From the IMG/VR virus record IMGVR_UViG_3300013233_000315, positions 1-25,058 of that record: a stretch of 25,058 nucleotides of DNA; one strand, given 5' to 3'. The stretch is from a virus. This document shows positions 3,883 through 23,328 of this stretch, piece after piece (positions within the stretch are counted from its first letter, which is position 1; the number at the start of each line of letters is the position of its first letter). A program made the translations under genes and the position numbers. The notes below the pieces were generated by a model. It worked only from the letters and a program-made list of their open reading frames with translations, did not search any database and was not told where the DNA came from.

Positions 3883-4031
3883 CAGGGCGTGGCGGGGATT
3901 GGCTCGGCCGGGCATGGCCGGGCTAGGCGAGGCACGGCAAGGCAGGGGAAGTACGCAATCATCACTGACGGGGCTTGGTGGGGCTGGGCTGGGCACGGCT
4001 TGGCAAGGCCTGGCTGGGCGAGGCAAGGGCA
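3878..4031 (+). repeat. GGCNN pentanucleotide array 2, two units
   Basis: Two units of 13 and 12 pentamers (3886-3950 and 3972-4031), nearly all GGCNN, separated by a 21-base linker (3951-3971). The linker resembles the array 1 linkers (shared TCATCACTGAC against TTATCATTGAC and TTATCACTGAC). The block opens with ATTGAC at 3878-3883, which includes the stop of the upstream gene. The first pentamer run ends GGCAG GGGAA exactly as unit 1 of array 1 does. The array ends 20 bases before the ATG of the nuclease-like gene and supplies most of its 5' leader. The reading frame through it is in phase with that gene, but the ribosome binding site lies downstream of the array. Confidence 0.9.
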
Positions 4032-4051
4032 ACACACAGAGAGGATCACGT

Positions 4052-5388: not shown

Positions 5389-5713
5389 GTCCCGCCACGA
5401 CAAAACCTGCGGCTTCTGTGGTGTTGCGTTCCATGCAAAGCACGTCCTTACCAAGTATTGCTCCCCCTCCTGCAAGCGGCGCGCCAAAGCGAAGCGGGTA
5501 CGGGAGCGGAAGTCCGGGCAAGCCCAACCATGTCATCTGCGACACGGTTGTGAGACGTGCGACACGCTGGCCGACTGCCGGCGGTATATCGCTGCCGGCC
5601 TGCCCGGGAACTGCGAGCAAGTCTGGCCGGTGGATGTGCGCTACGCTGCGGAGCGCGGCGTGCTGGGTGCGCTGTTGGAACTGCGGCCCGAAGCGCGAGG
5701 GGTAGTAGGATGA
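5378..5713 (+). CDS. Double zinc-finger protein
   Basis: 111 residues from ATG 5378, preceded by a GAGAGGGG site. There are two cysteine clusters. The first is Cys11/Cys14 with Cys28/Cys32 (CGFC ... CSPSC), followed by a very basic segment (KRRAKAKRVRERK). The second is Cys52/Cys58/Cys61/Cys67 (PCHLRHGCETC ... C). The first cluster resembles phage FCS/HNH-type zinc ribbons that bind nucleic acid. GC is about 70%, well above the csf genes that follow. The stop overlaps csf1 in an ATGA arrangement, so this protein is translationally coupled to the type IV-B operon and could be an accessory factor; that is inference. Confidence 0.65.
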   Translation: MPSESRHDKTCGFCGVAFHAKHVLTKYCSPSCKRRAKAKRVRERKSGQAQPCHLRHGCETCDTLADCRRYIAAGLPGNCEQVWPVDVRYAAERGVLGALLELRPEARGVVG

Positions 5714-6522
5714 AAGGCGTATGCCGTTTTTGCGGGCTTGAGGGGCGCGGAATGCCCTTCTACAAATGGGTCAAACCAACCTTCACGGATTGGGATAAGC
5801 TGCAACCCGGAAGCGTGGCCTGCGATGAGTGCCTGTTTTGGTTCAATGAGCGGTCAGAAGAGCTGGCCCAACGCGTTGGCAAGGAGAAACCACAACGAAT
5901 GCGCAACTACTCCCATTTCATCAAGGACGGGGAATGGACACCTTTATCGAAGGGGGACAAGGCACGCATGGCCAAAATGCTATTATCCACACCATTCCCT
6001 GAACTTGCGGCTATCGCCGTAAGCGGCCAGAAGCACATCGTTTTCCGCGCACCCCGCAACGCTCCGGGGCAAGCGTCCGGATGGGTACAAGTAGAGGAGC
6101 ATTCTGTTTTTGTGGAGCCGGAGAAGTTGTGCGCGTTGCTTGATGCGATCGAGGAACTTTACAAAGTGTTCTCGAAAGGAGAGATAGAAAGGGGGGATTA
6201 TGCAGCGTATCGCATACTGAAACTTGGTATAGAGCGTTGGCAAGAATTGGAGTCGCAATTGCGCACAGAACGAGGCGGACAGTTGTTTGGTCTGGCCTTG
6301 TTCTTGGCGCAGAAGAGAGGGGAGCATGGAAACGACAAAGGAAACAGTGAGCGAGCTGCTCACACTGATATGGCGGGGGGTACCGGCGGATTACAAGAGC
6401 AAGTACCGGACGACCATCTGGAATCAGTTCGAGAACGAGATACGCAGCGCGGCCTACACCAACAATCTGGGCAAGTTCGTCAACTCGATCTGTTTGAAAT
6501 TGCAGGCGACGATAGGACGTAA
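5710..6522 (+). CDS. csf1: Csf1, type IV-B CRISPR large/zinc-finger subunit
   Basis: A 270-residue protein. The N-terminal zinc finger is formed by Cys5/Cys8 (CRFC) and Cys38/Cys41 (CDEC), the hallmark of Csf1. It is followed by the aromatic stretch MPFYKWVKPTFTDW and a helical body up to about residue 203. Csf1 is the Cas8-like subunit of type IV complexes, expected to cap the crRNA 5' end of the Csf complex. ATG 5710 is chosen because it overlaps the upstream stop (ATGA); the frame is open further upstream only inside the zinc-finger gene. The last 65 residues, from about 206, overlap the cas11 gene in another frame and are low-complexity and polar, so the folded protein may end near residue 205. 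Confidence 0.75.
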   Translation: MKGVCRFCGLEGRGMPFYKWVKPTFTDWDKLQPGSVACDECLFWFNERSEELAQRVGKEKPQRMRNYSHFIKDGEWTPLSKGDKARMAKMLLSTPFPELAAIAVSGQKHIVFRAPRNAPGQASGWVQVEEHSVFVEPEKLCALLDAIEELYKVFSKGEIERGDYAAYRILKLGIERWQELESQLRTERGGQLFGLALFLAQKRGEHGNDKGNSERAAHTDMAGGTGGLQEQVPDDHLESVRERDTQRGLHQQSGQVRQLDLFEIAGDDRT

Positions 6523-6712
6523 GGCCGAGGAACGGGAACGCGCGGAGGCTTTGCTCAATCAGCTTGACGACCGGAGAGCGCTAAAACTCTTGCGTGACGA
6601 AACCACGTTGCTTGTGCTTATGGTTCGGGTGGCGAACCAGGAACGGCAAGCGGAATGGGAACGGCGCGTGAAGGAAGCGGATGCATTAGGACTATTCGAG
6701 GGAGGAGAGTAA
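6326..6712 (+). CDS. cas11: Cas11-type small subunit of type IV-B
   Basis: 128 residues, entirely helical and charged, with no cysteine zinc site. It lies between csf1 and csf2, the place of the small subunit in type IV-B loci. ATG 6326 has a good AGAGAGGGGAGC ribosome binding site upstream; codons from 6287 are unlikely to be used. The gene begins 197 bases before the end of csf1 in a different frame. Cas11 subunits line the belly of class 1 effector complexes and contact the target strand. The identification rests mainly on position, size and predicted all-helical make-up, because these subunits are poorly conserved. It ends one base before csf2, with GGAGGAG serving as the csf2 ribosome binding site. 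Confidence 0.7.
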   Translation: METTKETVSELLTLIWRGVPADYKSKYRTTIWNQFENEIRSAAYTNNLGKFVNSICLKLQATIGRKAEERERAEALLNQLDDRRALKLLRDETTLLVLMVRVANQERQAEWERRVKEADALGLFEGGE

Positions 6713-6713
6713 G

Positions 6714-7688
6714 ATGCACACGTACATTTTTGAAGGGGTCGTGACGGCCCTATCTAGTATCTCGCACATCGGGGAAACGCATGGCGTCAACGCCCGCCTG
6801 AAGCGGGAGAAGTTTGTGCAGCCGGATGGGTCAGTTGAGGAAGTCCCCACCATCTCCGGCAACTCGCTGCGAGGCATTTTGCGCGATCGAGGCATGTTGC
6901 ACATGCTGCGAGCGCTGGGATACGGCGTAAACGAGGAAACCGGAGAAGTGCAGGGCCTGTCATTGGCCGCATTCTATTTTCTGTTTTCCGGCGGCGCATT
7001 GACAAGCACGGCGGGGCATGGACTGGACGTGGACAAGGCGCGCAAGTGGCGGGAGCTTATCCCGTTGGTGGCTTTGTTCGGGGGTGCAATGGGGAACCAG
7101 ATCATGCCGGGCAAAGCAAAGATCGGCAAAGTCATCCCCATCTGCCAGGAGACGGCGCACCTTCTGCCGGATCGGTTTGTCAATATCCAATTGGAGAGTG
7201 TCTGGAACCTGTGTCAAGAGGAGGCCTACACGCGCCGCGATGATGAAAAGAACGAGAACCTACGAAAACTTATCGCCCCCAAGGTGCGAGCGCTGCTAGA
7301 GGCAAAGGCCAAAGACCAGCGCAAGAAAGCCGGCACAAAAGACGATATTGCGGGCAAGACCGGCCAGAAACAGCAAATGCGCTACTACGTGGAGACGATA
7401 GCGGCGGGGGCGCAATTGTACTGGGAGATTGTGCTCGATGATGTGGCAGAGTTGGAATTTGAGGCATTCTGTGCTACACTGGCGGAGTTCGCACGGTTCC
7501 CATATATCGGGGGTAAAAGTGGGGTTGGCCACGGCAAAGTGGACATCAAGTTTGACAAGTGGATCGAGATCAACCCACGTATTGCCCCGACCGGCCGTGA
7601 ATTGAATTTCTCGCTGGGCACGAAGTACCAGTCGCACTTGAAGGAGCATGGCGACGAGATTCGGGAGCTGATCGATGGCCTATCGTGA
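6714..7688 (+). CDS. csf2: Csf2, Cas7-type backbone subunit of type IV
   Basis: A 324-residue RAMP protein. It starts with a beta strand (YIFEGVVTALSSISHIGE), then the RAMP signature ISGNSLRGILRDRG (residues 47-60) where strand meets helix. A helical thumb-like insertion containing FLFSGGAL and the aromatic-free glycine run ALFGGAMGN (120-128) follows. Next come a charged, Lys-rich helical insertion (about 171-220), a core strand (MRYYVETIAAGAQLYWEIVL) and the Gly-rich loop YIGGKSGVGHGKV (264-276). Csf2 polymerises along the guide RNA as the backbone. The Csf2 call is based on these motifs together with the adjacent Csf3. A strong ribosome binding site (GGAGGAG) suggests high relative expression, as a multi-copy subunit needs. 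It overlaps csf3 by 14 bases. Confidence 0.85.
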   Translation: MHTYIFEGVVTALSSISHIGETHGVNARLKREKFVQPDGSVEEVPTISGNSLRGILRDRGMLHMLRALGYGVNEETGEVQGLSLAAFYFLFSGGALTSTAGHGLDVDKARKWRELIPLVALFGGAMGNQIMPGKAKIGKVIPICQETAHLLPDRFVNIQLESVWNLCQEEAYTRRDDEKNENLRKLIAPKVRALLEAKAKDQRKKAGTKDDIAGKTGQKQQMRYYVETIAAGAQLYWEIVLDDVAELEFEAFCATLAEFARFPYIGGKSGVGHGKVDIKFDKWIEINPRIAPTGRELNFSLGTKYQSHLKEHGDEIRELIDGLS

Positions 7689-8385
7689 CCGGTACAATCT
7701 GGAGTCGTTACGTATCACGGCATTCTTGCGAACACCGGTAGTGTCGGACAAATGGCTCCCGTTAGACGGGATTCTGCTCTACCAGGCACACCGCGACAAA
7801 TGCGGGCCGCAAGATTTTACTGTTCCTGGTGCATATAGTAGCCCAGCGCAAGTATCCACTTTGCCGCTGGACATTGCCCATCCTGGCCGGCGAATTTGGT
7901 ATTATCGATGCTCGTGGGCACAATGGCCCGAGCATGTCGTGGAGGGTACGGACTATTGGAACAAGCGATTTGACTCTCACTTGGCGAGTCTCGTAGATTT
8001 CCGTGGTCGGCGCGGCAAGGTGATTATAGAACGAGGCAAGTATAAAGCCTATCGCATGAAGATATTTTACCGCTCAGCATTATGGGTACGCTGGTATGCA
8101 GTCGGCGACAAGGAAGAGATTGGCTATCTTCTGTCGACCGTAACGCACATTGGTAAGAAGAGCGTGCAGGGTTGGGGGCGTGTCTACCGATGGGAAGTGC
8201 GCAAGTGGAAATACGACTGGAGCGTTTGGAAAGATGATCAGCTGATGCGAGGCATACCGATGGAGGCATTGGTGAAGGAGCGTGTTGGTAAACAAGTTCC
8301 TGTTGACTTGAAGCTTGGCAATTATGGGGTACGGCCCTCATACTGGAAAAAGAGCAACCAGATGGACTTAGTGATGCCAGCATGA
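7675..8385 (+). CDS. csf3: Csf3, Cas5-type subunit of type IV
   Basis: A 236-residue RAMP protein. The N-terminal block LRITAFLRTPVVSDKWLPLDGILLY (in two pieces about residues 12-36) is the pattern I associate with Csf3: a beta strand followed by the LPLDGIL helix start. A Gly-rich loop near residues 158-170 (HIGKKSVQGWGRV) is the RAMP signature. Many Trp and Tyr residues lie between (for example WYYRCSWAQW). Csf3 is expected to hold the 5' handle of the guide together with Csf1. ATG 7675 lies inside the end of csf2, preceded by GGGAG, and its stop overlaps the CysH-like gene (ATGA). GC is about 42-50% on two counted lines, among the lowest in the operon. Confidence 0.85.
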   Translation: MAYRDRYNLESLRITAFLRTPVVSDKWLPLDGILLYQAHRDKCGPQDFTVPGAYSSPAQVSTLPLDIAHPGRRIWYYRCSWAQWPEHVVEGTDYWNKRFDSHLASLVDFRGRRGKVIIERGKYKAYRMKIFYRSALWVRWYAVGDKEEIGYLLSTVTHIGKKSVQGWGRVYRWEVRKWKYDWSVWKDDQLMRGIPMEALVKERVGKQVPVDLKLGNYGVRPSYWKKSNQMDLVMPA

Positions 8386-9113
8386 AGCGTGAAATCGCGT
8401 TGTTACATGCGCGAATGAGAACGCATCATTCACGTGTTGCCTCTGCCAAACGTATCATTGTGGAAGCACTGGATGTGTGCCCAACCTGGTATGTCGGGTT
8501 TTCGGGCGGCAAGGATAGTACTGTGGTAGCTGATTTGGTGCTGGGTTTATCACCTAGTGCCAACTTGCTCTATGGCGATGAGGAGTGGTTGTTGCCGGAA
8601 AGTTCCGCGTATTTTGAGCGAGTGTCCCAGAAATATGGTGCGCAGTTTCATCACATCAAGGCCGCTGACGAACACACCCCGTGGTTCCGGACTTGGCAGG
8701 ATGACCCTGATGCCATTCATAGCGACAATGCCTCCGCTGTCTATGCGAGGAGTAAGGGTTGGGGGGGCGCGTTTCTTGGCCTCCGCTCTGAGGAGAGCGC
8801 AGGCCGCAAGATGTATTTGCGCCGGTTCGGAGCGTTGCATTACGCTAAGAGCAACGAGCAGTGGCAATGCAACCCCATCTACAACTGGACATGGCGGGAT
8901 GTGTGGGCGTACATTTACACCAATGACTTGGATTACAATCGCGCTTATGATCGGATGGATAAGATTGGTGTGGAGCCGAAATATCAGCGCATCGGCCCAT
9001 TGGCTGTGGAGCGGGTACTGGGGCGTGGGCAATTGGCGATCCTGAAGCGGGGCTGGCCGGGCTTATTCAATCGGTTTGCGGCCAAGTTCCCCGAAGCGCG
9101 AGCCTACGTCTAA
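8382..9113 (+). CDS. CysH-like PP-loop ATP pyrophosphatase of type IV-B
   Basis: A 243-residue protein of the PAPS reductase/adenine nucleotide alpha-hydrolase superfamily. The PP-loop FSGGKDST is at residues 40-47; GLRSEES (133-139) and CNPIYNWTWRDVWAYI (163-178) are the other conserved blocks. True PAPS reductases end with an ECGxH-type catalytic cysteine, and APS reductases add Fe-S cysteines. Here only Cys33 and Cys163 occur and no such C-terminal motif exists, so assimilatory sulfate reduction is unlikely. Such genes are the known partner of type IV-B csf operons and resemble DndC/phage 3'-PAPS reductase-like proteins. Activation of a substrate by adenylation, perhaps nucleic-acid modification or sulfur transfer, is possible but unproven. 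It overlaps csf3 (ATGA) and abuts the next gene (TAATG). Confidence 0.82.
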   Translation: MKREIALLHARMRTHHSRVASAKRIIVEALDVCPTWYVGFSGGKDSTVVADLVLGLSPSANLLYGDEEWLLPESSAYFERVSQKYGAQFHHIKAADEHTPWFRTWQDDPDAIHSDNASAVYARSKGWGGAFLGLRSEESAGRKMYLRRFGALHYAKSNEQWQCNPIYNWTWRDVWAYIYTNDLDYNRAYDRMDKIGVEPKYQRIGPLAVERVLGRGQLAILKRGWPGLFNRFAAKFPEARAYV

Positions 9114-12006: not shown

Positions 12007-12396
12007 ATGGCAGAGGAAAGCGGCAGCAAGAACGACAAACGCAAACACCGGCGCTTCACAGCGGAACAGGTGATCAAGGCCCTGCGCAAAAAGCGCGGGT
12101 TCCTGGCGGCGGTTGCCAAAGAGCTTGGCTGCACGCGGCAGACCGTCTACAACTACGTCAATCGCTATCCGACTATTGCCCAGGCCCTGGAAGAAATCCG
12201 CGAGGAACGACACGACTGGGTAGAAGGGAAGCTGCTCAAACAGATTGAGAACGACAACATGACCGCAATCATCTTCTACCTGAAGACGCAGGCCAAACAT
12301 CGCGGATACGTGGAACGCCAGGAGGTAACCGGCGCGGACGGCGACGCCGTGGTCGTGCGTGTGATTGGCGGCGTAAACCTGGATGAGGACGTTTGA
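12007..12396 (+). CDS. terS: Terminase small subunit-like protein
   Basis: 129 residues. The N-terminal half is a helix-turn-helix: FTAEQVIKALRKKRGFLAAVAKELGCTRQTVYNYVNR (in two pieces, about residues 20-58). A helical region (ALEEIREERHDWVEGKLLKQIEND, in two pieces) and NMTAIIFYLKTQAKHRGYVER follow. This last motif is typical of small terminase or terminase-associated HTH proteins just upstream of terL. It overlaps the large terminase gene by 14 bases. The ribosome binding site is weak. Expected role: recognition of the packaging site on concatemeric DNA. Confidence 0.75.
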   Translation: MAEESGSKNDKRKHRRFTAEQVIKALRKKRGFLAAVAKELGCTRQTVYNYVNRYPTIAQALEEIREERHDWVEGKLLKQIENDNMTAIIFYLKTQAKHRGYVERQEVTGADGDAVVVRVIGGVNLDEDV

Positions 12397-13657
12397 GCTG
12401 CGGAATGGCCCGCCGTCGAAGGCGGACTACACGCCCTACGGCGCGGCGCGGGAGTTCATACGGAGTAGAGCACGGGAAGTAATTATCAGCGGGCCGGCAG
12501 AGACGGGCAAGACGCTGGCCGCACTTTACAAATTGCACATTTGCGCTTGCAAATACCCGGCCGCGTCCATCGTCGTCGTGCGCAAGACGCTGGCCAGCAC
12601 GCACAGCACGGTGCTGGTGACGTTCCGCAAGAAGGTGCTGGGCGACGACTCGCCGGCGACGCCGTATGGGGGTGAGAAGCCGGAGTGGTACGACTACCCG
12701 AACGGGGCGCGTATCTGGTTGACCGGCATGGACAAGAGCAGCAAGGTCTTGTCCAGCGAGCACGACATCATTTACGTCAACCAGGCGGAAGAGTTGTCGT
12801 TGTCGGACTGGGAGACGCTGACCACGCGGGCCACGGGACGCGCGGGGAATATGCCTTATGCGCAGACCATCGGCGATTGCAACCCTGCGGGCAGCGGACA
12901 TTGGATTGTCAGGCGGGCGAACAGCGGGGCACTGCAACTGCTCAAATCGTACCACAAGGAAAATCCGGCGCTATTCGACCAGCGCACCGGCAAGATCACC
13001 GAGCAGGGCAAGCGCACTATGGCTACCCTGGACGCCCTGACCGGCCATCGGCGCAAGCGGTTACGGGACGGCGAGTGGGCCTCACCGGAGGGGCTGGTCT
13101 ACGAGCAATTCGACGAGGACAACGTATCCGTTTCGGCGGAGTACGACAGGGAGCGAGGGCCGGTCGAACTGGCGGTGGATGATGGCTTTGCAGCGTCGCC
13201 ACGGGCAATCCTGTTCGTCCAGACGGACGACGACGGCACAATCAACGTGTTCGACGAAATCTACCACTTACGGCATCTGGCGGAGGTGTGTATCGGAGAG
13301 GCGAAGAGCAGGCTGAAAGAGGCGGCAGGTGATAAGGCGAGATTTGAGGTTGCGATTTGTGATCCATCAGCCGTGCAACTGATAGCCGCATTGCGGAAAG
13401 CCGACATACCGGCACGTGGCGCAAAGTGTGGCATCGTGGAGGGTATCAAGAACTTGGAGCGGTTCGTTCGTGATGCAGATGGCAGGGTAAAATTGTGCAT
13501 ACACCCTCGTTGCACAAATCTGATTAGCGAGATAAGTGAGGGGTATTGCTGGCCGGAAGGGAAGAGCGGGAGCGGAGATGTGAAACCTGTGAAGCAGAAT
13601 GACCACGGCCTGGACGCATTGAGATACTGGGTGTGGATGCGAGCAAGGAAACGATGA
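12383..13657 (+). CDS. terL: Terminase large subunit
   Basis: 424 residues. Walker A is GPAETGKT (37-44), and a Walker B-like strand with catalytic acid is HDIIYVNQAEE (127-137). The coupling segment TIGDCNPAG (162-170) is typical of terminases. The C-terminal RNase H-like nuclease has Asp266/Asp267 (AVDDG), Asp327 (AICDPSA) and DHGLDALRY (407-415). It pumps DNA into the prohead and cuts it. Length and motif order fit a complete protein. It overlaps terS upstream and a small membrane gene downstream (ATGA). Confidence 0.93.
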   Translation: MRTFELRNGPPSKADYTPYGAAREFIRSRAREVIISGPAETGKTLAALYKLHICACKYPAASIVVVRKTLASTHSTVLVTFRKKVLGDDSPATPYGGEKPEWYDYPNGARIWLTGMDKSSKVLSSEHDIIYVNQAEELSLSDWETLTTRATGRAGNMPYAQTIGDCNPAGSGHWIVRRANSGALQLLKSYHKENPALFDQRTGKITEQGKRTMATLDALTGHRRKRLRDGEWASPEGLVYEQFDEDNVSVSAEYDRERGPVELAVDDGFAASPRAILFVQTDDDGTINVFDEIYHLRHLAEVCIGEAKSRLKEAAGDKARFEVAICDPSAVQLIAALRKADIPARGAKCGIVEGIKNLERFVRDADGRVKLCIHPRCTNLISEISEGYCWPEGKSGSGDVKPVKQNDHGLDALRYWVWMRARKR

Positions 13658-13803
13658 CAATCATCAAAACAGCAATCTTGACGGCCGTCTCATTGCCCCC
13701 GTTTCTTGCCGGCTATCTGGTCGGCTTCGTGATGCGAAGCGCGCTTTGGTTGATTGCCGCGATTGTCGCAGGATACGAAACGGGCAGGGGTAACGCAACA
13801 TGA
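13654..13803 (+). CDS. 49-residue membrane protein between terL and portal
   Basis: ATG 13654 overlaps the terL stop, and the TGA at 13801-13803 overlaps the portal start, so both junctions are ATGA. The peptide is hydrophobic with two possible membrane helices (ILTAVSLPPFLAGYLVGFVM and ALWLIAAIVAGY) and a short polar end (ETGRGNAT). The two exact overlaps argue that it is translated. Function unknown. Confidence 0.6.
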   Translation: MTIIKTAILTAVSLPPFLAGYLVGFVMRSALWLIAAIVAGYETGRGNAT

Positions 13804-15887
13804 TCAATCTACTGTCACGCGTGCAGTCGCGGTACAGGCAGTTGGTGCAGCAGGATGCGAAGGCGATTTCGCACCACCCTGAGTTGAGGCACAGGGTACA
13901 TATTTTGCAACAGTATGACAGCGCGGTGAGCACAGAGATAGACGCATTCGCGGATTACGCGAGCGTCTACAAGTCTCACGTCTGGGTGCGCAAGGCGGTT
14001 GGTAAAATCACCGACTCTATTGCCTACCTCCCTGTCGCTGTGGTAGACAAAAACGGTGAAGTTATTCCTTCCCATCCCGTTTCTGAATTGCTGCGAACGG
14101 CAAATGACACACTTTCGCCCCACGACCTGTGGCAACGATGGGCGGTGCACCACATGCTGGGGGGTGAGTCATTCTTTGAGGTTGTGCTGGATGGACGCGG
14201 AAGGCCGGCGGAGTTCTGGCCGCGCGTACCCGACCAGGTTGCCGTGTTGCCGGATGTGAGCAGCGAGCGCGCGTTATTTCCCCGCGTGGCGGGGTACACC
14301 TTTGGCGACGACGACCACCTTGTCTCGCCGGAATTGATGTGGCATAGCAAATTCTACAACCCGACCAACCCGTGGCGGGGTCTGGCACCCATCGCGGCTG
14401 TGCGACAGGGGATTGTGATTGACCTCTTCGCACAGGCATGGAGCAAGGCGTTTCTGAAGCGTGGAGCACGCCCTGATTATGCGGTTATCGCGCCGCAGGG
14501 CTTGACGCGGACGGAAAAAGACGACCTGGAGTCGCAATTGATGGAGAAATTTAGCGGACAGGACAACTGGCATAGGCCAATTGTTCTCGAGGAGGGGATT
14601 ACAAAGATCGAGACCTTCTCATTTGCGCCGAAGGACATTGAGTGGTTGGAGCAAAGAAAACTGGCGCGAGATGAGATCGGGGGTATCTTCGGTGTGCCGG
14701 ATGAGGTTATGGGATATGGACGCGACACCTACGAGAACATGGACGCAGCCCATCGCTGGTTCTGGCTACTGACACTGCTCCCCCTAGTCACGCACAGGGA
14801 CGTATCGCTGACGCACTTCTTCACCAAAGTCAACCCGCAACTGCGCCCAGGAGAGCGCATTTCAACGGACCTGTCCGGTGTCGGCGCGCTGAGCGAGGAC
14901 ATCGCGCCGAAACTGGAACAGGCTAAATCCTTGTGGGGCATGGGTGTACCGTTGGATGTGATTGACGAGCGACTTAGCCTGGGGCTGGGCCCCGTACCCG
15001 GTGGCAACGTGGGATATTTGCCGGTCAATCTATTGCCAGTGGGCAGCGACACATTGCCCGCGCAACAGTTGTCCATTCGCAATCGCAGGGCGGCGGTCAA
15101 GCGAACGGCTGTGCCGACGTATGGTTCCCCGGCGCACAAGGCATTGTGGAACAGTCATCTTGCCAGGATTACGCCGCATGAACGTGCCATGCAGCGACAA
15201 CTGAAGCGCACGTTTCAGAGACAGCAAAACGAAGTCTTGCGGGTTTTCCGGAACCGCGCGGCCGGCAAGACAGTGAGTGACATTCCCTCCGTTGATGAAC
15301 TGTTCAACGTGACTGTGGAAGATGGCGTGGTAGCAGATGAGGTACAGACATTTCTTGTCGCTGCATTCTCGGAATTTGCCACAGAGCAATTGAACGACCT
15401 GGCAAGCGGGGTTGCATTCGACCAAAACCAGGCGGTCACGGATTATATCAAGCGCCATGCGGCGGAGCTTGCACAGAATATCGACGAGACCACGATGGAC
15501 AGGCTTCGGGATATACTGGTTGAAGGGCAAAACGAAGGGTTGAGCATGGCAGAGATACAGGACAAGATCAGCGAGATGTTCAACGGCCGCAAGAGCGCAG
15601 CGGAAACAGAGCGTATCGCACGGACAGAGATGAACCGCGCCAGCAACCAGGGGATTATCGAAGGAATGCGGCAGAGCGGCGTGGTGCAACGCAAGGCGTG
15701 GCTGGCCGCGTTGGACATCCGAACACGAGACACGCATGTTGCGGCGCACCTACAATACCAAGAGTCGCCTATCCCCCTCGAGGCTATGTTCGAGGTGGGG
15801 GGTGGGTCTGGACCGGCGCCAGGGCAAATCGGGATTGCCGCCGAGGACATCAATTGTCGTTGTGTCGCGATGGCGGTCGTAGATTGA
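13800..15887 (+). CDS. Portal protein fused to Mu F-like minor head domain
   Basis: 695 residues. Residues about 40-400 form an HK97-type portal: VWVRKAVGKITDSIAYLPV, the DDHLVSPELMWHSKF region, and EIGGIFGVPDEVMGYGRDTYENM (in two pieces near 292-315). After a linker comes a C-terminal phage Mu F-like domain (about 590-695): ERIARTEMNRASNQGIIEG, then WLAALDIRTRDTH and the closing cysteine pair NCRCVAM. Portal and Mu F proteins are normally separate neighbouring genes. Here one frame covers both with no internal stop, so the dodecameric portal would carry its head-morphogenesis partner covalently. Confidence 0.9.
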   Translation: MINLLSRVQSRYRQLVQQDAKAISHHPELRHRVHILQQYDSAVSTEIDAFADYASVYKSHVWVRKAVGKITDSIAYLPVAVVDKNGEVIPSHPVSELLRTANDTLSPHDLWQRWAVHHMLGGESFFEVVLDGRGRPAEFWPRVPDQVAVLPDVSSERALFPRVAGYTFGDDDHLVSPELMWHSKFYNPTNPWRGLAPIAAVRQGIVIDLFAQAWSKAFLKRGARPDYAVIAPQGLTRTEKDDLESQLMEKFSGQDNWHRPIVLEEGITKIETFSFAPKDIEWLEQRKLARDEIGGIFGVPDEVMGYGRDTYENMDAAHRWFWLLTLLPLVTHRDVSLTHFFTKVNPQLRPGERISTDLSGVGALSEDIAPKLEQAKSLWGMGVPLDVIDERLSLGLGPVPGGNVGYLPVNLLPVGSDTLPAQQLSIRNRRAAVKRTAVPTYGSPAHKALWNSHLARITPHERAMQRQLKRTFQRQQNEVLRVFRNRAAGKTVSDIPSVDELFNVTVEDGVVADEVQTFLVAAFSEFATEQLNDLASGVAFDQNQAVTDYIKRHAAELAQNIDETTMDRLRDILVEGQNEGLSMAEIQDKISEMFNGRKSAAETERIARTEMNRASNQGIIEGMRQSGVVQRKAWLAALDIRTRDTHVAAHLQYQESPIPLEAMFEVGGGSGPAPGQIGIAAEDINCRCVAMAVVD

Positions 15888-15912
15888 CAAAGCGCACAGA
15901 GGAGGCTTGAGC

Positions 15913-16986
15913 ATGATGCGAAAGAATGTACAAATCGAAGTACAGGAAAAGCGCAAAGACGGTGGGCGTATTTTGATCAGCACCAGCGTAATTGACCGCG
16001 ATCACGACCGCGTGATGCCGCTTGGTGCGGACATCACGAATTACATGAAAAATCCAATCGTACAATGGGGGCATAACTATCGCGACCCATGGGCCACGAT
16101 AGGAAAGACAACCTCCCTGGAGCTGACGCCGGAGGCCATCGTAGCAGAGTTTGAATTGCGCCCACCGGCAAACGACAGCGACCCGCAAAACATTATCGCG
16201 CTCTTGTGGGATGGCGGCTGGATACAAACTGCGAGTATCGGTTTTGCCCCACAAACGAGCGAGGATAATGATGTGGGCGGCAAGGACTTCACGCAATGGG
16301 AGCTTCTGGAATGGAGCCTTGTTCCCATTCCGGCGAACCAGAGCGCGCTGCGGCTGGCGGTGAAGTGTCTGGAATGTGAAGACGCGGGCAAGGCCGCCGT
16401 GCCGTACAAGAACACCCCTCTCGCGCCAGAGAATATGCCGTGGGATGCCGCAGCGGCTCGCAAGCGAGTGCGTGACTGGGCGGATGGGGACATTGCCAAA
16501 TACAAACAAGCCTTCGCCTGGCAGCGGCTGGGCGAGGATGCGAACAACCTGCGCACCTATGTTGGCCCTCACCATGACATCGTGGACGGGCAATTGCGCA
16601 CGGTATGGAGAGGCGTAATGGCCGCGATGGGCGCGCTGGTCTTTGGCGCACGTGGCGGGCGAATTGCAGACGAGAACGAGAGACGCGCAGTATACGGACA
16701 CCTACGTCGGCATTATGCCGACTTCGGGAAGGACGCGCCGGAATTCCGCAACCCTAGCGAGGCGGAAATCAAGGCAGCGTTTGGGGTGTATGCCACTGAC
16801 GGGATCGATGAAGCAGACGACACTGACAGCACAGAACACAACATGGATGCAGCTATGCAAGACAGTCCGGACAATGACAATGATGAAACATCGGGCAGCG
16901 TGGCAATTCTAGCAGAGGCGTTGGAGAAATGGCTTACAGTAATTGAACAAAGTATGAAAGCAGAGGTGAACGATGGAACATCTTGA
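15913..16986 (+). CDS. HK97-family prohead protease (S78) with scaffold-like C-terminus
   Basis: 357 residues from ATG 15913, preceded by AGGAGG; TTG 15907 is possible but too close to it. The protease domain covers about 8-155: STSVIDRDHDRVMPLGAD, IVQWGH with His54, TASIGFAP with Ser108, and EWSLVPIPANQSAL. A second conserved domain follows (about 165-285; VPYKNTPLAPENMPWDAAAARKRV, AYKQ-type helix, VGPHHDIVDGQLRTVWRGVMAAM, each in pieces). The last 70 residues are acidic and helical, like a scaffolding segment. It matures the capsid and probably helps assemble it. It overlaps the capsid gene by 14 bases. Confidence 0.88.
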   Translation: MMRKNVQIEVQEKRKDGGRILISTSVIDRDHDRVMPLGADITNYMKNPIVQWGHNYRDPWATIGKTTSLELTPEAIVAEFELRPPANDSDPQNIIALLWDGGWIQTASIGFAPQTSEDNDVGGKDFTQWELLEWSLVPIPANQSALRLAVKCLECEDAGKAAVPYKNTPLAPENMPWDAAAARKRVRDWADGDIAKYKQAFAWQRLGEDANNLRTYVGPHHDIVDGQLRTVWRGVMAAMGALVFGARGGRIADENERRAVYGHLRRHYADFGKDAPEFRNPSEAEIKAAFGVYATDGIDEADDTDSTEHNMDAAMQDSPDNDNDETSGSVAILAEALEKWLTVIEQSMKAEVNDGTS

Positions 16987-18376
16987 CGAAATTTTGCAGC
17001 AAATGGCAGAGTTGACCGCTGTCGTGAAAGAGCACAAAAGCGATAGCGCGACGCTGGACTGGGATCGGGTCAAAGACACGTTCCAGGAACAAATCAAGGA
17101 CATGGTAGAGCAGCAAGTTGAAGCTCGCATTGCGCGACAGCCCGATCGTCGTGTGGCGGGGTGGGGTATTCAGGCAGAAGGCGAAACAATCGAGCTGTCT
17201 GGCAACCGGTACGCGCGCATGGTGAAGAATATGCACCGTGATGGGTATCATCGCGCCGGCAGCGACAGGATGAAGCCATTCGACTTGTGGCTTGCGCACC
17301 GCATCTTGGAGGCACAGGTGCAACTGAAGCACGCATCTATCGGCGGCCAGGCGATTCCGCCGTCAGATGACCTGAAAAAGGCACTGAAGGCGTTGGACTC
17401 AACGACTGCCGGCTCCGGTGACGAACTTGTGCCGACGGCGATGGCTGCCGACTTGTGGGACGACTTCTTCCTACGGTCGCGGGTGGTTGCGGCAATGGAC
17501 AGTATCCCAATGCCCACCAACCCGTTCGACGCATCTTTGGGTCTGGGCGATGTAACATGGCGCAAGGGCACGGAAAGCGCAACAACGACAGCAAGCGACC
17601 CGTCAACCGCAAAGAGTACGCTGACAGCGACCGAACTGGTCACAGAGCAGAATTGGTCGTACACGCTGAACGAGGACTCGGTGGTTGCAATGGCGCCGGC
17701 TATCCGGAAACGGTTGGCTATCAGCGGTGCGGAGATCATCGACGACTTTGCGTTGAACGCCGATAGCACAAGTGCCGCAACCGGCAATATCAATCTCGAC
17801 GACGCCACACCCGACGCGGACAAGTACTATCTGTCCGATGGCCAGGATGGTATCCGGCATCTTTGGTTGGTCGACAACACCAGCCAGACCTACAACGCCG
17901 GTGGTGACGCCTTGATTGACGGAGACATCACGAGCATGTTGGTGCTGATGGGGAAGTATGCAGTCAATCCGGAGCAGACCGTGATGGTGGTGGACGCAAG
18001 CACGTACCTGAAGGGCCTCTTGGGTATTACCAATGTCACTACCGTGGACAAGTTTGGGCCAGAGGCCGTATTACGCACAGGCCAACTGGCAGCGTACCGG
18101 GGTATTCCCATCATCGTGAGCGCCAGTCATCCACTTGGCGAAGCGGATGGGAAGGTCAGTACTACGTCCGGCAACAACACGCTGGGCAGTATTTCGTGTT
18201 TCAACACGCTGATGTGGGTGGCCGGGTTCCGGCGTGACCTGCTGATCGAGGTAGATAAGGATATTCAGAAGCGGCAGTACATCATGGTCACGAGCTTGCG
18301 GGAAGCGGTCGCGGCCTGGGGCACACGCTCCAGCGCCACGTATACGGCCGGCATCCGCAACATCCTGGTGACTTAA
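16973..18376 (+). CDS. Major capsid protein, HK97 fold
   Basis: 467 residues. The N-terminal 110 or so residues are helical and charged, as in a delta/scaffold domain removed by the prohead protease. The HK97-fold core then follows: GSGDELVPTAMAADLWDDF, the E-loop-like acidic and Ser/Thr stretch (WRKGTESATTTASDPSTAKS), LVTEQNWSYTLNEDSV, and the P- and A-domain strands up to VTSLREAVAAWGTRSSATYTAGIRNI in pieces. Position directly after the S78 protease supports the call. The protein forms the icosahedral shell. Confidence 0.88.
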   Translation: MEHLDEILQQMAELTAVVKEHKSDSATLDWDRVKDTFQEQIKDMVEQQVEARIARQPDRRVAGWGIQAEGETIELSGNRYARMVKNMHRDGYHRAGSDRMKPFDLWLAHRILEAQVQLKHASIGGQAIPPSDDLKKALKALDSTTAGSGDELVPTAMAADLWDDFFLRSRVVAAMDSIPMPTNPFDASLGLGDVTWRKGTESATTTASDPSTAKSTLTATELVTEQNWSYTLNEDSVVAMAPAIRKRLAISGAEIIDDFALNADSTSAATGNINLDDATPDADKYYLSDGQDGIRHLWLVDNTSQTYNAGGDALIDGDITSMLVLMGKYAVNPEQTVMVVDASTYLKGLLGITNVTTVDKFGPEAVLRTGQLAAYRGIPIIVSASHPLGEADGKVSTTSGNNTLGSISCFNTLMWVAGFRRDLLIEVDKDIQKRQYIMVTSLREAVAAWGTRSSATYTAGIRNILVT

Positions 18377-19137: not shown

Positions 19138-19965
19138 ATGAGCATCACGAACGGATATTGCACGCTCAACGAACTCAAGCAACACCTGATGAACACCGGT
19201 ACATATACCGCGAGCACAATCAGCTTTGCGAACTCCGGTAGTGTCATCAGCGATTCTGCGTGGGGCTTGAAGCGCTACCAGACCAATGACCTGATCCAGG
19301 TAAGCGGAAGCACCAACAACGATGGGCGATATACAGTTTCCACCGGCAATGTCGCAGCGCAAATTGTGACGTCTGAAGCGCTGACGGATGAAAGCGCCAG
19401 CGCGTCTATTACAATCACGAATATCACAGACCTGGACGATGATGCGCTACTGGAGGTGATTGTAGAGGATGTTAGCCGGTGGATTGACGACGTGACGGGC
19501 CGGCGATTTTACTCTGCTTCAGAGACGCGCTACTATACGGCAACACAGACGGCGAATGTGTTTGTGGATGACTTGCTGAGCGTGACCACGCTAAAAACAG
19601 ATAGCGATGGCGACCGTACCTACGAGACAACGTGGACGACAAGCGACTATGACCTTCTTCCCTTCAACGCCTCTACGGACGGGAAGCCATATACGCGGGT
19701 TGACGTCAATTCGCAAGGCAGTTATACCTTCCCTGTAACCGTGAAGGGTATAGAGATTGTGGGGTCTTTCGGGTATGCCAGTACCGCGCCTGGCCCAATC
19801 CGAAGAGCATGTTTGATTATGTGCGAGCGCATTGTACGGCGCAAGGATGCGCCATTGGGCATTGCGGGCATTGGCGGGATTGGCGAGCTACGCCTTATCG
19901 CTGCGCGCGATCCTGACGTGATGAATTTGCTTGCTGCATATCGAGCGGGTCGTAGGTTAGTATAA
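19138..19965 (+). CDS. Head-tail connector, gp6-like, with inserted beta domain
   Basis: 275 residues. The ends match phage gp6/DNA-packaging-type connector proteins: NGYCTLNELKQHL at the start, then DALLEVIVEDVSRWIDDVTGRRFY (about 102-125, in pieces), YYTATQTANVFVDDLLSVTTLKTD and the helical C-terminus. Between residues about 20 and 97 a Ser/Thr/Gly-rich beta domain is inserted (LIQVSGSTNNDGRYTVS is its centre), which ordinary connectors lack. The connector forms a ring under the portal. The stop overlaps the next start (TAATG). Confidence 0.78.
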   Translation: MSITNGYCTLNELKQHLMNTGTYTASTISFANSGSVISDSAWGLKRYQTNDLIQVSGSTNNDGRYTVSTGNVAAQIVTSEALTDESASASITITNITDLDDDALLEVIVEDVSRWIDDVTGRRFYSASETRYYTATQTANVFVDDLLSVTTLKTDSDGDRTYETTWTTSDYDLLPFNASTDGKPYTRVDVNSQGSYTFPVTVKGIEIVGSFGYASTAPGPIRRACLIMCERIVRRKDAPLGIAGIGGIGELRLIAARDPDVMNLLAAYRAGRRLV

Positions 19966-20462
19966 TGACTGTCATCAACGTTAAGATTGACGGCCTGGAC
20001 GCTCTCATAAAAGATACCGATCCGGCGATATTGCGCGAGCCGTTATCGAGGTTCTTCACCCGTGCCGGTATGGTGTCCATGTCGGAAACACAGAAGCGTT
20101 CACCCGTAGACACGGGGCGGCTACGGTCTAGTTTGGCGCGGGGTGGAGCGGATAGTGTCTGGTCATTGCACAGCAAAAGCCACTTACCCGATCGGCTGAT
20201 TGTGGGCACGAAGGTCACACACAAGGGCGAGTCGTATCCGGCGAAGTTGGAAACAGAGGCCGGATATCACTATCGTGGTGGCCGGGCCCACGGGCGTGCT
20301 CACCCGAAGGCCGTTGGCCCTTTTGCGACCATGCGTACCGGACTGCTCGGCAAGCCAACGAAGGGCTGGTTCAGTGGTGGTATCAGGCTGGCCAGCAAGC
20401 GTTTTCCGGAGTTCATGCGTCGCATGGCCCGGGAGATTGAAGAACGCTGGGGGCATGGCTAA
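19965..20462 (+). CDS. HK97 gp10-like head-tail completion protein
   Basis: 165 residues. The diagnostic block is TQKRSPVDTGRLRSSLARG (about 42-60), the gp10-family signature, followed by VGTKVTHKGESYPAKLE and a basic, His/Gly-rich stretch (YRGGRAHGRAHPKAVG). The C-terminal helix (RFPEFMRRMAREIEERW) is typical. It sits between connector and tail terminator, as in HK97-like phages. ATG 19965 and the stop at 20462 both form one-base overlaps with neighbours. Confidence 0.82.
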   Translation: MTVINVKIDGLDALIKDTDPAILREPLSRFFTRAGMVSMSETQKRSPVDTGRLRSSLARGGADSVWSLHSKSHLPDRLIVGTKVTHKGESYPAKLETEAGYHYRGGRAHGRAHPKAVGPFATMRTGLLGKPTKGWFSGGIRLASKRFPEFMRRMAREIEERWGHG

Positions 20463-20875
20463 TGGCGACTCTGTCTAATGCCATTGCGCAAGTTCAATCG
20501 CTCGTCCGCGGGCTGGCCGGTGTCCGTGACGCTCCGGACTACCCGCCAGAAAAAGCATCTGCGTTCCCCTTCGCCGTTGCATACCCTGGCACGGGCCGGT
20601 GGGTTGGTGGCGCGCCAGCGGGTGAAAAGCGGGGGTTGCACACAATCATCGTAGAATTGCATGTGGCTCGCAAGGACTTGCCACGGGACGTGGAGGGGGC
20701 AATGGGGTATGTAGAGAGTATTCCGAATGCCATCCTTAATGCGCCAACCCTGAGCGGGACGGTAGATACAGTTAACGAGATACGGTACACGTTTGGGGCG
20801 TTGAATTACGGAGACTTGCAAACAATCGGGTACCGGTTCGAGGTTGATATCAAACAAAGGAGCGCGGTTACATGA
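20462..20875 (+). CDS. Tail terminator / minor tail protein
   Basis: 137 residues of alpha/beta make-up: an N-terminal helix (LSNAIAQVQSLVRGLAGV), strands with TIIVELHVARKDLPRD, a helix (EGAMGYVESIPNAILN) and a final strand pair (GYRFEVDIKQR). This layout and its position right after the gp10-like gene match small tail terminators (gpU/gp17-like), which cap the tail tube at the neck. The assignment is mostly by position. Confidence 0.65.
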   Translation: MATLSNAIAQVQSLVRGLAGVRDAPDYPPEKASAFPFAVAYPGTGRWVGGAPAGEKRGLHTIIVELHVARKDLPRDVEGAMGYVESIPNAILNAPTLSGTVDTVNEIRYTFGALNYGDLQTIGYRFEVDIKQRSAVT

Positions 20876-21642
20876 AACCGAAGGTTCTGGTAGGTATCCC
20901 TGTCGAACGCACCATCCCCACTGCGGCATTTTGGGGCTTCTTGCAGATTGTACAGCAAGGATACGCCTTCACCTGCTTGCCGTACATGCGTTGCGATGTA
21001 GCCAGAAATCAGATCGTCAAGGAGTTTCTGTCACCGGCGAACAGCGTCTTCACACACCTGCTAATGCTTGACATGGATCACGTACACCCACCTGACATCG
21101 TGGAGAGGTTGGCAAGGCACGTCGAGCAAGACCCATCGAAGCTAGTTATTGGAGGCCTCAACTTCAAGCGCACGGCTCCATTTGAGCCATGCTTTTTCCT
21201 GCGCGCAGGCGATGGGCAGTATTTCACACTCACGGACTGGCGGCCCGGCTTGCTCAAGGTAGATATTCTCGGTACAGGTTCAATCCTGATTGCACGGGAG
21301 GTATTCAGTCGGATAAAACCACCGTGGTTCAGCTATTCGTACAAAGCTGATATGAGCCTGGACAATTGGCCGGAAGCCTGGCCGGGCGTTGACGTGACAT
21401 TCTCGAAATTCTGCACCGTAGCCGGAATTGACATGTGGGTTGACACCACAACGACCAGCCCGCATATCACCGAATCGCTTGTAGAAGAGACCGCTTTTCG
21501 GGCAGGACTGGCTAGGACGGGGAGGGGCAACAGCAATGGCAATGCGGGGTTGAAGTACGAGGACACACGTGCATTGCCGGAGTTGGTCTACGCCAAACCC
21601 GAACCGACCTACGGCGCGGTATCACTGACGATTGACGAGTAG
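20872..21642 (+). CDS. GT-A-fold glycosyltransferase
   Basis: 256 residues. It has the metal- and nucleotide-sugar-binding DMD (67-69, LLMLDMDHVHPPDIV), a GT2-like acceptor strand DILGTGSILIAREVF (131-145), Asp174 in GVDVTFSKF as the catalytic base position, and His198 in SPHITES as the third metal ligand. All GT-A core residues are present, so it should be active. The N-terminal strand KVLVGIP is the first Rossmann beta strand. It sits inside the neck/tail gene block with ATGA overlap to the tail terminator, which suggests that it glycosylates a virion protein; DNA-base or host-surface substrates are alternatives. Confidence 0.82.
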   Translation: MKPKVLVGIPVERTIPTAAFWGFLQIVQQGYAFTCLPYMRCDVARNQIVKEFLSPANSVFTHLLMLDMDHVHPPDIVERLARHVEQDPSKLVIGGLNFKRTAPFEPCFFLRAGDGQYFTLTDWRPGLLKVDILGTGSILIAREVFSRIKPPWFSYSYKADMSLDNWPEAWPGVDVTFSKFCTVAGIDMWVDTTTTSPHITESLVEETAFRAGLARTGRGNSNGNAGLKYEDTRALPELVYAKPEPTYGAVSLTIDE

Positions 21643-21652
21643 GAGGTGTTGC

Positions 21653-21847
21653 ATGGGCAGGATGATTTACACGGGTGGTGGGTTCAAGGGGTTCTTGCCG
21701 GGGATACCAGCAAGAGATTTGACTTCGGAAGAAGTAGTCAAGTTCGGCGGCGAGGCAACATTATTGACGACAGGGCTATATGAATTGCCGAAACAACAGC
21801 GCAGGGTCAGCAAAAAGAAAGAAGAGGTGAAGCATGGCAGGCATTAA
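21653..21847 (+). CDS. Small protein with basic tail in tail module
   Basis: 64 residues from ATG 21653, with AGGAGGTGTTGC as a strong ribosome binding site; codons from 21632 belong to the end of the glycosyltransferase gene. It has a short beta-like domain (FLPGIPARDLTSEEVVKFGG, TTGLYELP) and a Lys/Arg-rich tail (RRVSKKKEEVKHGRH). PARDLT followed by EE is a pattern I have seen in small phage head/tail-junction proteins. It overlaps the tail tube gene by 14 bases and shares its overall plan with the protein at 18889. Confidence 0.6.
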   Translation: MGRMIYTGGGFKGFLPGIPARDLTSEEVVKFGGEATLLTTGLYELPKQQRRVSKKKEEVKHGRH

Positions 21848-22832
21848 GGCATTACGGAAAATCCAGTTGGGCGCGGAAACCACGGCAGGGACAGCGGTCG
21901 CGGCGACCACAATCTGGCGTGGCGTTGGCACGATGGAAGACAAGCGCGAGGTAGTGTTCCCGGATGAGGACGTGGGGTATTTGAGCGGCGTCGACCGGAC
22001 ATATATTCCGAAGCTCCTGGCGGTGCTGTCTATGGATGAGACGCCAGCAACATTCGAGCAGTTCGGATATATCCTGGAGGCCGGCGTGAAGAAAGTCACG
22101 CCATCGCAGGACGGGACGGGGAGCGATTATATCTACACATACACTTTCCCGACCACAGCGGTCAGCACCATCCGTACCTATACGATCGAGGGTGGAGACA
22201 ATCAACAGGAGGAGGAGTCGCCATATTTCTTCGTCGATAGCTTCAAGCTGAGCGGTCAGGCGGGTGAAGCATGGAAGATGTCGGCAAACTGGCAAGGGCA
22301 ACAGGTCACAGCATCATCGTTCACAGGTAGCCTCTCCCTCCCATCCGTCGAGGAAATTCTGTTTAGCAAAAGCTCGCTGTATATCGACGCGGCCGGGGGC
22401 ACAATTGGCACAACGCAGAAAAGCAGTACGTTCCTATCCGCCTCTTTAGACGTAGATACGGGCATCCAGCCAGTGTTTACCGGCGACGGTAGTCTGTATT
22501 TCACTTTTACGAAAAACACGCCGCCAGAGGTAACGCTGGACATTACTTTCGAGCACGATGGTACAGCGACTGCGGAGAAAACGAACTGGCGCAATGAGAC
22601 GGCTCGCCAAATTCGGATCTTGTCGCAGGGCAGCTCGGTCAGTACCGCTGGCACAACGTACAGCGTGAAAACCATGAATATCGACTTGGCGGGCAAATGG
22701 GAAACTTTCGAGAAGCTGGGCGAGCGGAATGGCAACGATGTTGTGACGGGTAAGTTCCGTGCACGATACAACAGCACGGCGGCCCTGTTCGCGGAAATTC
22801 TTCTTGTCAATGATTTGAGCTCGCTGCCATGA
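21834..22832 (+). CDS. Major tail (tube) protein
   Basis: 332 residues, beta-rich. The start MAGIKALRKIQLGAETTAGTAVAAT (in pieces) with the following WRGVGTMEDKREVVFPDEDVG is typical of siphovirus tail tube proteins. Blocks such as TFEQFGYILEAGVK, FVDSFKLSGQAGEAWKMSANW and LSASLDVDTGIQPVFTGDG match the tube-domain repeats. Length above 300 suggests an extra C-terminal domain. It forms hexameric rings of the tail. Position before the frameshifted chaperones supports the call. It overlaps the next gene (ATGA). Confidence 0.82.
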   Translation: MAGIKALRKIQLGAETTAGTAVAATTIWRGVGTMEDKREVVFPDEDVGYLSGVDRTYIPKLLAVLSMDETPATFEQFGYILEAGVKKVTPSQDGTGSDYIYTYTFPTTAVSTIRTYTIEGGDNQQEEESPYFFVDSFKLSGQAGEAWKMSANWQGQQVTASSFTGSLSLPSVEEILFSKSSLYIDAAGGTIGTTQKSSTFLSASLDVDTGIQPVFTGDGSLYFTFTKNTPPEVTLDITFEHDGTATAEKTNWRNETARQIRILSQGSSVSTAGTTYSVKTMNIDLAGKWETFEKLGERNGNDVVTGKFRARYNSTAALFAEILLVNDLSSLP

Positions 22833-23140
22833 CCAAAAATAATCCGAAATTGGTATTCACGCCGCCTGACCGGAACACACGAGGTTTCCCCCGTCGCATG
22901 CGCCAGGCCGCCGAACTAGAACAACGGCTCATTGGGGATGATATTGCCCCGGAGACCATAGACGCGATAGTTGAATTCCTGCTTGATTTTGTCACAGAGC
23001 CTGCGAGTCGGAAAACGGCTCGTGAATTGCTGTGGGACGCAAGCCAGGAAGAGTTCGAGGCCATGTTTTCTGCCATTACTGGGAAAAGGGAAGGAGAAGG
23101 TTCCGGCCCTTTAGCCGGTACAAGCTCGCCGCCAGATTAG
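22829..23140 (+). CDS. Tail assembly chaperone, short form (gpG-like)
   Basis: 103 residues, acidic and helical in the middle (APETIDAIVEFLLDFVTEPASRKTARELLWDAS in pieces). Its ATG overlaps the stop of the tail tube gene. It ends at 23140, but just before that lies a CCCTTTA slippery heptamer in the correct phase, giving a longer product by -1 shift. This G/GT arrangement is the rule in siphophages between tail tube and tape measure genes; the two forms help wind the tape measure protein. Confidence 0.82.
   Translation: MTKNNPKLVFTPPDRNTRGFPRRMRQAAELEQRLIGDDIAPETIDAIVEFLLDFVTEPASRKTARELLWDASQEEFEAMFSAITGKREGEGSGPLAGTSSPPD
23107..23113 (+). other. -1 programmed frameshift site CCCTTTA
   Basis: The heptamer reads C CCT TTA in the phase of the gpG-like frame (CCT codon at 23108-23110, TTA at 23111-23113), an exact X XXY YYZ slippery site. 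Slipping back one base pairs the two tRNAs with CCC and TTT, then continues with AGC CGG TAC in the gpT-like frame, which is open to 23328. Confidence 0.78.
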
Positions 23141-23328
23141 CATTGCGTGGCGCGGGGCCGCCCCCTCTCCCCGTGCTTGTCTTGGCGGCGGCAGAAGAGT
23201 GGGGCATACCTCCCTGGCGAGTTGAGGAAGAATGCACGGAGTATTGGTGGATGTGGTGGGCGGCGCGACGCATAGCGCAAAATGAAGAAGCGGAATCACA
23301 GGAGAGGCAATGGCAAACGCAAAGCTGA
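23108..23328 (+). CDS. Tail assembly chaperone C-terminal part (gpT-like), reached by -1 frameshift
   Basis: The -1 frame continues as SRYKLAARLALRGAGPPPLP, then VLVLAAAEEWGIPPWRVEEE and a Trp-rich end (YWWMWWAARRIAQNEE). It has no usable start codon of its own with a ribosome binding site. LAARLA followed by a WGIPPW-type helix is the usual pattern of the T half. The frameshift product is about 165 residues from 22829 to 23328. Its last 19 bases overlap the tape measure start. Confidence 0.78.

Follow-up and report, generated by a model that had tools for sequence, protein, structure and literature searches.

The window analysed here, a complete IMG/VR virus record of 25,058 bases (IMGVR_UViG_3300013233_000315), carries a type IV-B CRISPR-Cas operon (positions 5710–9113, + strand) among the genes of a tailed phage. 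The large subunit of its effector complex, Csf1, appears to have gained a long, disordered C-terminal tail that ends in QLDLF, a putative binding motif for the bacterial beta sliding clamp, DnaN, and in 20 relatives this tail motif has been retained far beyond the coding demands of the overlapping gene, cas11. Reviews pose the function of type IV-B as an open question, these systems having no array, no nuclease and heterogeneous RNA (PMC8175902, PMC7937560); a clamp-binding motif under selection points to a likely site of action of the viral systems and offers a first testable idea. Judged from sequence, it is the tail with its candidate clamp motif on a viral Csf1 that is new. No earlier link of the sliding clamp to a type IV Csf1 was found in the literature searched, and in one paper (PMC11519345) 'clamp' appears only as a verb. 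One cas gene would here have grown a functional tail by overprinting another.

The csf1 gene (5710–6522, + strand; 270 amino acids) runs 197 nucleotides (nt) into cas11 (6326–6712, +), in a different frame and past the point where other Csf1 cores stop. This two-frame overlap (6326–6522, +) recurs in 21 loci, with a length of 173–248 nt and an always identical phase, and synonymous constraint is confined to it; under synonymous recoding of cas11 the probability that the csf1 frame stays open is mostly below 0.1 per locus. The csf1 end (6522) and cas11 start given in the original prediction already implied an overlap of about 197 nt, which went unremarked there, and the tail with its clamp motif was missed. 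In an AlphaFold2 model of Csf1, the core (residues 1–203) has a high predicted local distance difference test score (pLDDT), while the tail (residues 204–270; 6319–6519, +), which is mostly overprinted on cas11 and is conserved in the csf1 frame, falls below 50 nearly throughout and is predicted to be unstructured. QLDLF occupies residues 258–262 of the 270 (6481–6495, +), and the tail consensus in the window's clade, roughly LQEPLsDDhLgaVREr...rGlHqQPGqVrQLtLF, ends at or near the stop. The binding consensus of the clamp is QLxLF, typically C-terminal and unstructured, with QLSLF as the full consensus peptide (PMC4549789); Csf1 has both marks of a clamp client, a motif of this type near its C-terminus and a location in sequence predicted to be unstructured. 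It resembles in this the transposases and repair enzymes with a C-terminal beta-clamp motif (PMC4549789), which share the QLxLF, the unstructured C-terminus and the repeated origin; those proteins are unrelated, however, and here the motif sits on a CRISPR large subunit.

As a null model for the tail, the cas11 codons of 20 sequences were synonymously recoded by each phage's own usage (1000 draws). QL.LF occurs in the csf1 frame of seven of the 20 relatives, against a null mean of 0.075 and a maximum of 1, and a looser form of the motif in 13 (null 0.66, maximum 4). Constraint is strongest in columns Q69 (z = 21), Q62 (18), F73 (12.7), R51, Q39, H60, L70 and L72; the top ones are the Q, L, L and F of the motif plus an upstream H.Q. 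Mean excess conservation is 0.126 within the overlap versus 0.005 just past the csf1 stop, where the top z is 2.2. Four-fold sites in csf2 are near saturation (0.333 identical versus 0.297 expected), so that shared ancestry explains little of the conservation in the overlap. At the codon level, Q69 of Csf1 is encoded by CAA or CAG at 19 of 20 loci while Cas11 alternates between N and S, and Leu72 by TTG or CTG at 18 of 20. The N/S and Leu/Ile codon swaps of Cas11 thus preserve the Q and L of Csf1, which argues for a protein-level constraint in the csf1 frame. It might be objected that the QLxLF tail is incidental, either a side effect of translation through cas11 or a signal that the overlap carries at the nucleotide level, and in the window's clade the tail does sit within cas11, where the codons are mutually constrained. 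We regard this explanation as very improbable and already largely refuted by the recoding null together with the control downstream of the csf1 stop, by synonymous C/T variation that preserves Leu, and by the occurrence of the same motif at the end of Csf1 in a clade without the overlap.

That clade came to light among loci fetched with patterns for the body of Csf1, the tail not being used; the IMG/VR scan with these patterns yielded 100 contigs that encode Csf1, of which 80 were kept, and PADLOC confirmed the Csf1 identity of representatives from these later loci. In this deep clade the gene order is cas11-csf2-csf3-cysH-csf1, no genes overlap at csf1, and Csf1 ends exactly in QLSLF at its last residue (L115, L116, L118, L121, L125, L127, L128, L132; QLSLWG in L103). 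A third clade, which has the overlap, carries QLDLF, QLSLF, QLGLW, QRSLF and QCSLF, and the recoding test gave 11 of 13 against a null of 0.043 (maximum 2). Among 58 viral Csf1 clusters at 70% identity, 19 have a strict QLxL[FW] in their last 34 residues, as opposed to four of 1022 background clusters (p ~2e-22); among the other subunits the strict motif is found in one of 82 Cas11 clusters and in none of 91 Csf2, 91 Csf3 and 83 CysH clusters. A relaxed pattern, which unlike the strict one was chosen after viewing the data, matches 37 of 58 Csf1 clusters and 21 of 1022 background clusters. The five C-terminal background proteins scanned were all DNA methylases, plausibly clamp clients themselves. 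Phage methylases of the N6_N4_Mtase family in L115 (1083–2456), L118 (2978–3289), L127 (1825–2682), L132 (8819–9673) and L100 (6018–6866) have termini that are QLSLF or close to QLPLF, and are likely to be clamp-bound.

Outside Csf1, the 'plasmid' RHOApd of Rhodovastum atsumiense (L003; NZ_OW485605.1) is a phage-plasmid that encodes a portal, terminase and baseplate as well as IV-B; its Csf1 is without the motif, but in its Cas11 QLELF stands three residues before the C-terminus, which looks like the same anchor placed on a different subunit. Clamp motifs in Csf2, Csf3, CysH or at N-termini were not found beyond background. Two candidates were set aside: a Csf3 ending of the type 'QYDLY', which belongs to the conserved C-terminus of that protein, and 'FQLALFLAQ' in the body of tail-less Csf1s, which is not a clamp motif. 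Mapped onto a Csf2 tree, the motif label changes some 12–16 times, which indicates repeated gain or loss. Only one of 47 viral records (L123, whose Csf1 is without the motif) encodes a clamp above the cut-off; the target would thus be the host's clamp.

Taken as a whole, these observations are probably best explained by a IV-B complex that is tethered to the host's clamp through the Csf1 tail and acts at replication forks. An RNA-bound filament of Csf2 and Cas11, predicted to be capped by Csf1 and Csf3, would be tied by the Csf1 tail to host DnaN at the forks, and the complex, together with the CysH-like nucleotide-activating enzyme, may interfere with DNA replication or take it over for the benefit of the phage, against host or rival DNA; CysH-driven adenylyl chemistry is perhaps part of blocking or redirecting replication. 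Binding of Csf1 to DnaN would follow from the motif and from what is established for clamp clients. Action at the fork has less support than clamp binding, and is in line with the finding that complexes of type IV-A are close to replication forks even when they have no target (PMC11551745). Several points weigh against this explanation. Both the activity at the fork and the part that CysH plays are putative; the motif is absent from about one-third of viral Csf1 clusters and from all plasmid Csf1s examined, so it is dispensable for IV-B function; several of the motifs found are degenerate (QPTLS, QYSLF) or lie 15–25 residues from the end; and the only isolated IV-B phage found, Skermania phage SPI1, is without it. 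Among 11 other IV-B loci, ten of them on plasmids and the eleventh in SPI1, no Csf1 has the clamp motif. More tentatively, and with rather less confidence than we have in the mechanism for the window itself, viral IV-B systems in general could be replisome-docked RNA–protein machines: phages would have fitted a beta-clamp anchor repeatedly (on Csf1 tails in several deep clades, on Cas11 in the phage-plasmid), with IV-B functioning on replicating DNA and CysH-like nucleotide chemistry taking place at the fork.

Two other possible roles are compatible with a clamp anchor. In one, the complex is a guide-RNA sponge that coats host small RNAs or CRISPR RNAs (crRNAs) without sequence preference and thereby shields the phage against RNA-guided defence; the clamp motif would then be secondary or serve to tune location. 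Such a role has been proposed, and the IV-B complex studied binds heterogeneous RNA of uniform length (PMC7937560, PMC8175902); it also fits an operon with no array; yet it leaves unexplained both CysH and the selected clamp-binding tail on many viral large subunits, and we consider it unlikely. In the other, the complex works with crRNAs borrowed from arrays of the host or of phages, and it blocks the replication of rival phages or plasmids, with the clamp tail bringing it to replicating DNA. Type IV-A acts on plasmids in this way (PMC11551745), and some phages of one clade (clade B) have CRISPR arrays about 7–10 kb from csf2. These arrays, with 10–18 repeats, stand with a Cas12f/Cas12u-like gene (L115, 10820–13797; L125, 12869–16323; L127, 9341–12237); the adjoining Cas12-like gene accounts for them, however, and their spacers have no match in the INPHARED phages. 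Neither the window nor 12 relatives were found to contain an array, nor did one go with the csf operon in a wider scan of relatives, and the IV-B complex studied did not enrich co-expressed crRNAs (PMC7937560). The RNA-guided competition put forward in the original prediction thus finds no support, with no array to go with csf and that complex binding heterogeneous RNA, and we hold such borrowing of crRNAs to be doubtful. A conserved flanking non-coding RNA was considered as a guide source and rejected, the 450 nt up- and downstream in the clade sharing nothing beyond one locus pair.

The operon itself is a complete type IV-B effector module in which every family feature that could be tested is present. 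PADLOC models match csf1 (Csf1_0_IV, 3e-28, residues 3–210 only), cas11, the small subunit (Cas11_1_IV, 4e-28), csf2, the Cas7-like backbone (6714–7688, +; Csf2_0_IV, 7e-86), and csf3, Cas5-like (7675–8385, +; Csf3_0_IV, 1e-50). NCBIfam models for Csf1, Csf2 and Csf3 (TIGR03116, 6e-14) also match, but under their strict cut-offs. For the Csf2 family there is a match to the Csf2 of the solved IV-B structure (7jhy_e of 7jhy, 4e-33), and the top Foldseek matches of the Csf1 model are type IV-A Csf1 chains (7xg1_A, the best, and 8rc3_G). The two RAMP-like proteins of the original prediction accordingly fall within Csf2 and Csf3, its five genes lie where it had placed them, and the Csf1 zinc-finger cysteines that it had pointed out (C5, C8, C38 and C41) are nearly invariant. 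The PP-loop gene that it had called CysH-like (8382–9113, +) indeed encodes a putative ATPase of the phosphoadenosine phosphosulfate (PAPS) reductase fold (Pfam PF01507, 2e-19; nearest folds the PAPS reductases 6vpu and 1sur); in the alignment it retains the SGGKDS loop and has no invariant or conserved catalytic Cys, as described for Cas-associated CysH (PMC8175902). The csf1/csf2/csf3 core, cas11 and a cysH-like gene of this kind are features of type IV-B, as is the lack of an array and of adjacent Cas6, DinG or adaptation genes. No Cas6, DinG or adaptation family appeared among the scanned operon neighbours in the window, and neither tRNA nor Rfam RNA was found in it.

Other IV-B systems share parts of this make-up. 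That of the Mycobacterium sp. JS623 megaplasmid (7JHY, PMC7937560) likewise has Csf1, Cas11, Csf2 and Csf3 with neither array nor Cas6, but is plasmid-borne, and Csf1 and Csf3 are not resolved in its structure; a related mycobacterial plasmid Csf1 (L050, not that of JS623 itself) is without the clamp tail. The Fuxivirus IV-B of Bathyarchaeia viruses (PMC10848311) is virus-borne and complete, with CysH, as in the window, but belongs to an archaeal virus and has a mini-array. SPI1 is a tailed phage with cas11-csf2-csf3-cysH in an unannotated IV-B operon (Orf40–44; L002, KR011061.1, 32609–36242), but sits on an actinobacterial branch and has the clamp motif in no subunit. Type IV-A systems (P. 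oleovorans, P. aeruginosa) share the Csf1 fold and the location near replication forks (PMC11551745); unlike the window they have an array, Cas6 and DinG, and no such clamp motif has been reported for them in the literature searched.

Downstream of the operon lie packaging and head genes identified with PHROGs (TerS, TerL, portal, protease and major head protein; 12007–18376, +), followed by connector and tail genes (19138–25058, +), including a head–tail adaptor and neck, up to a tape measure gene cut by the contig end. The module was thus rightly placed in a tailed-phage genome, and it has company: an IMG/VR search with the window's Csf2 found at least 24 other viral contigs with the operon, at 37–75% Csf2 identity (most 52–75%), and TerL or portal was detected in most csf-bearing viral records tested. 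Against 50,697 phage records the sole match was SPI1 (36%), and against plasmids there were 72 matches of low identity, about 36% at best. That type IV is known mainly from plasmids holds for published work, but IV-B in phages is not in itself new: virus-borne IV-B has been published for an archaeal virus, type IV is also reported in lytic phages (PMC10848311), and SPI1 carries the genes. What can be added is that phage-borne IV-B is common and widespread. The contigs compared in detail have hardly anything but the operon in common. In a gene-sharing matrix of the first contig set most pairs share three to five families, which are the csf genes themselves, so that the module has passed between phages that otherwise differ. 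The operon's position might still be the product of a chimeric assembly, since the window is a single metagenomic contig; but csf genes stand among phage genes in many contigs from different metagenomes, the gene overlaps are seamless and GC content is similar, which makes an artefact extremely unlikely.

Among 84,980 species of bacteria and archaea the window's clade occurred twice, both times on contigs of Chloroflexota metagenome-assembled genomes (MAGs), which suggests Chloroflexota as the host phylum, binning errors being possible. When host spacers against the window were sought by a DNA search in 396 genomes from the class of the MAG, only weak short matches came up, and no clear spacer.

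Several loci depart from the usual layout. Seven (L005, L006, L007, L010, L012, L013, L015) have differing extra genes between csf3 and cysH, among them small helix-turn-helix-like or sigma-like ones, and in L014 (11625–12900) cysH is absent after csf3, its place taken by a gene whose cysteine motif, read by eye, is radical-SAM-like. One virus found in two metagenomes (L022, 6372–6920; L023, 178–726) has a decayed module, in which csf2 breaks off after residue 163 and neither csf3 nor cysH is present; an intron or att site at that residue was considered and dropped, the truncation being that of this one virus and the case of L030 a mere contig end. In L085 (1260–2405) and L086 (7455–8603) a single open reading frame matches both Csf1 and Csf3 profiles and contains direct repeats of 26–37 nt spaced 72–80 nt apart; the type IV locus here is degraded or fused. 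Finally, in the window, arrays of GGCNN pentanucleotides (2423–2670 and 3883–4035) flank a phrog_4652 gene and have a repeated GGGAA..CGCAATTATCACTGACG element between them, and similar pentanucleotide arrays are found in L017, which shares the phrog_4652 gene.

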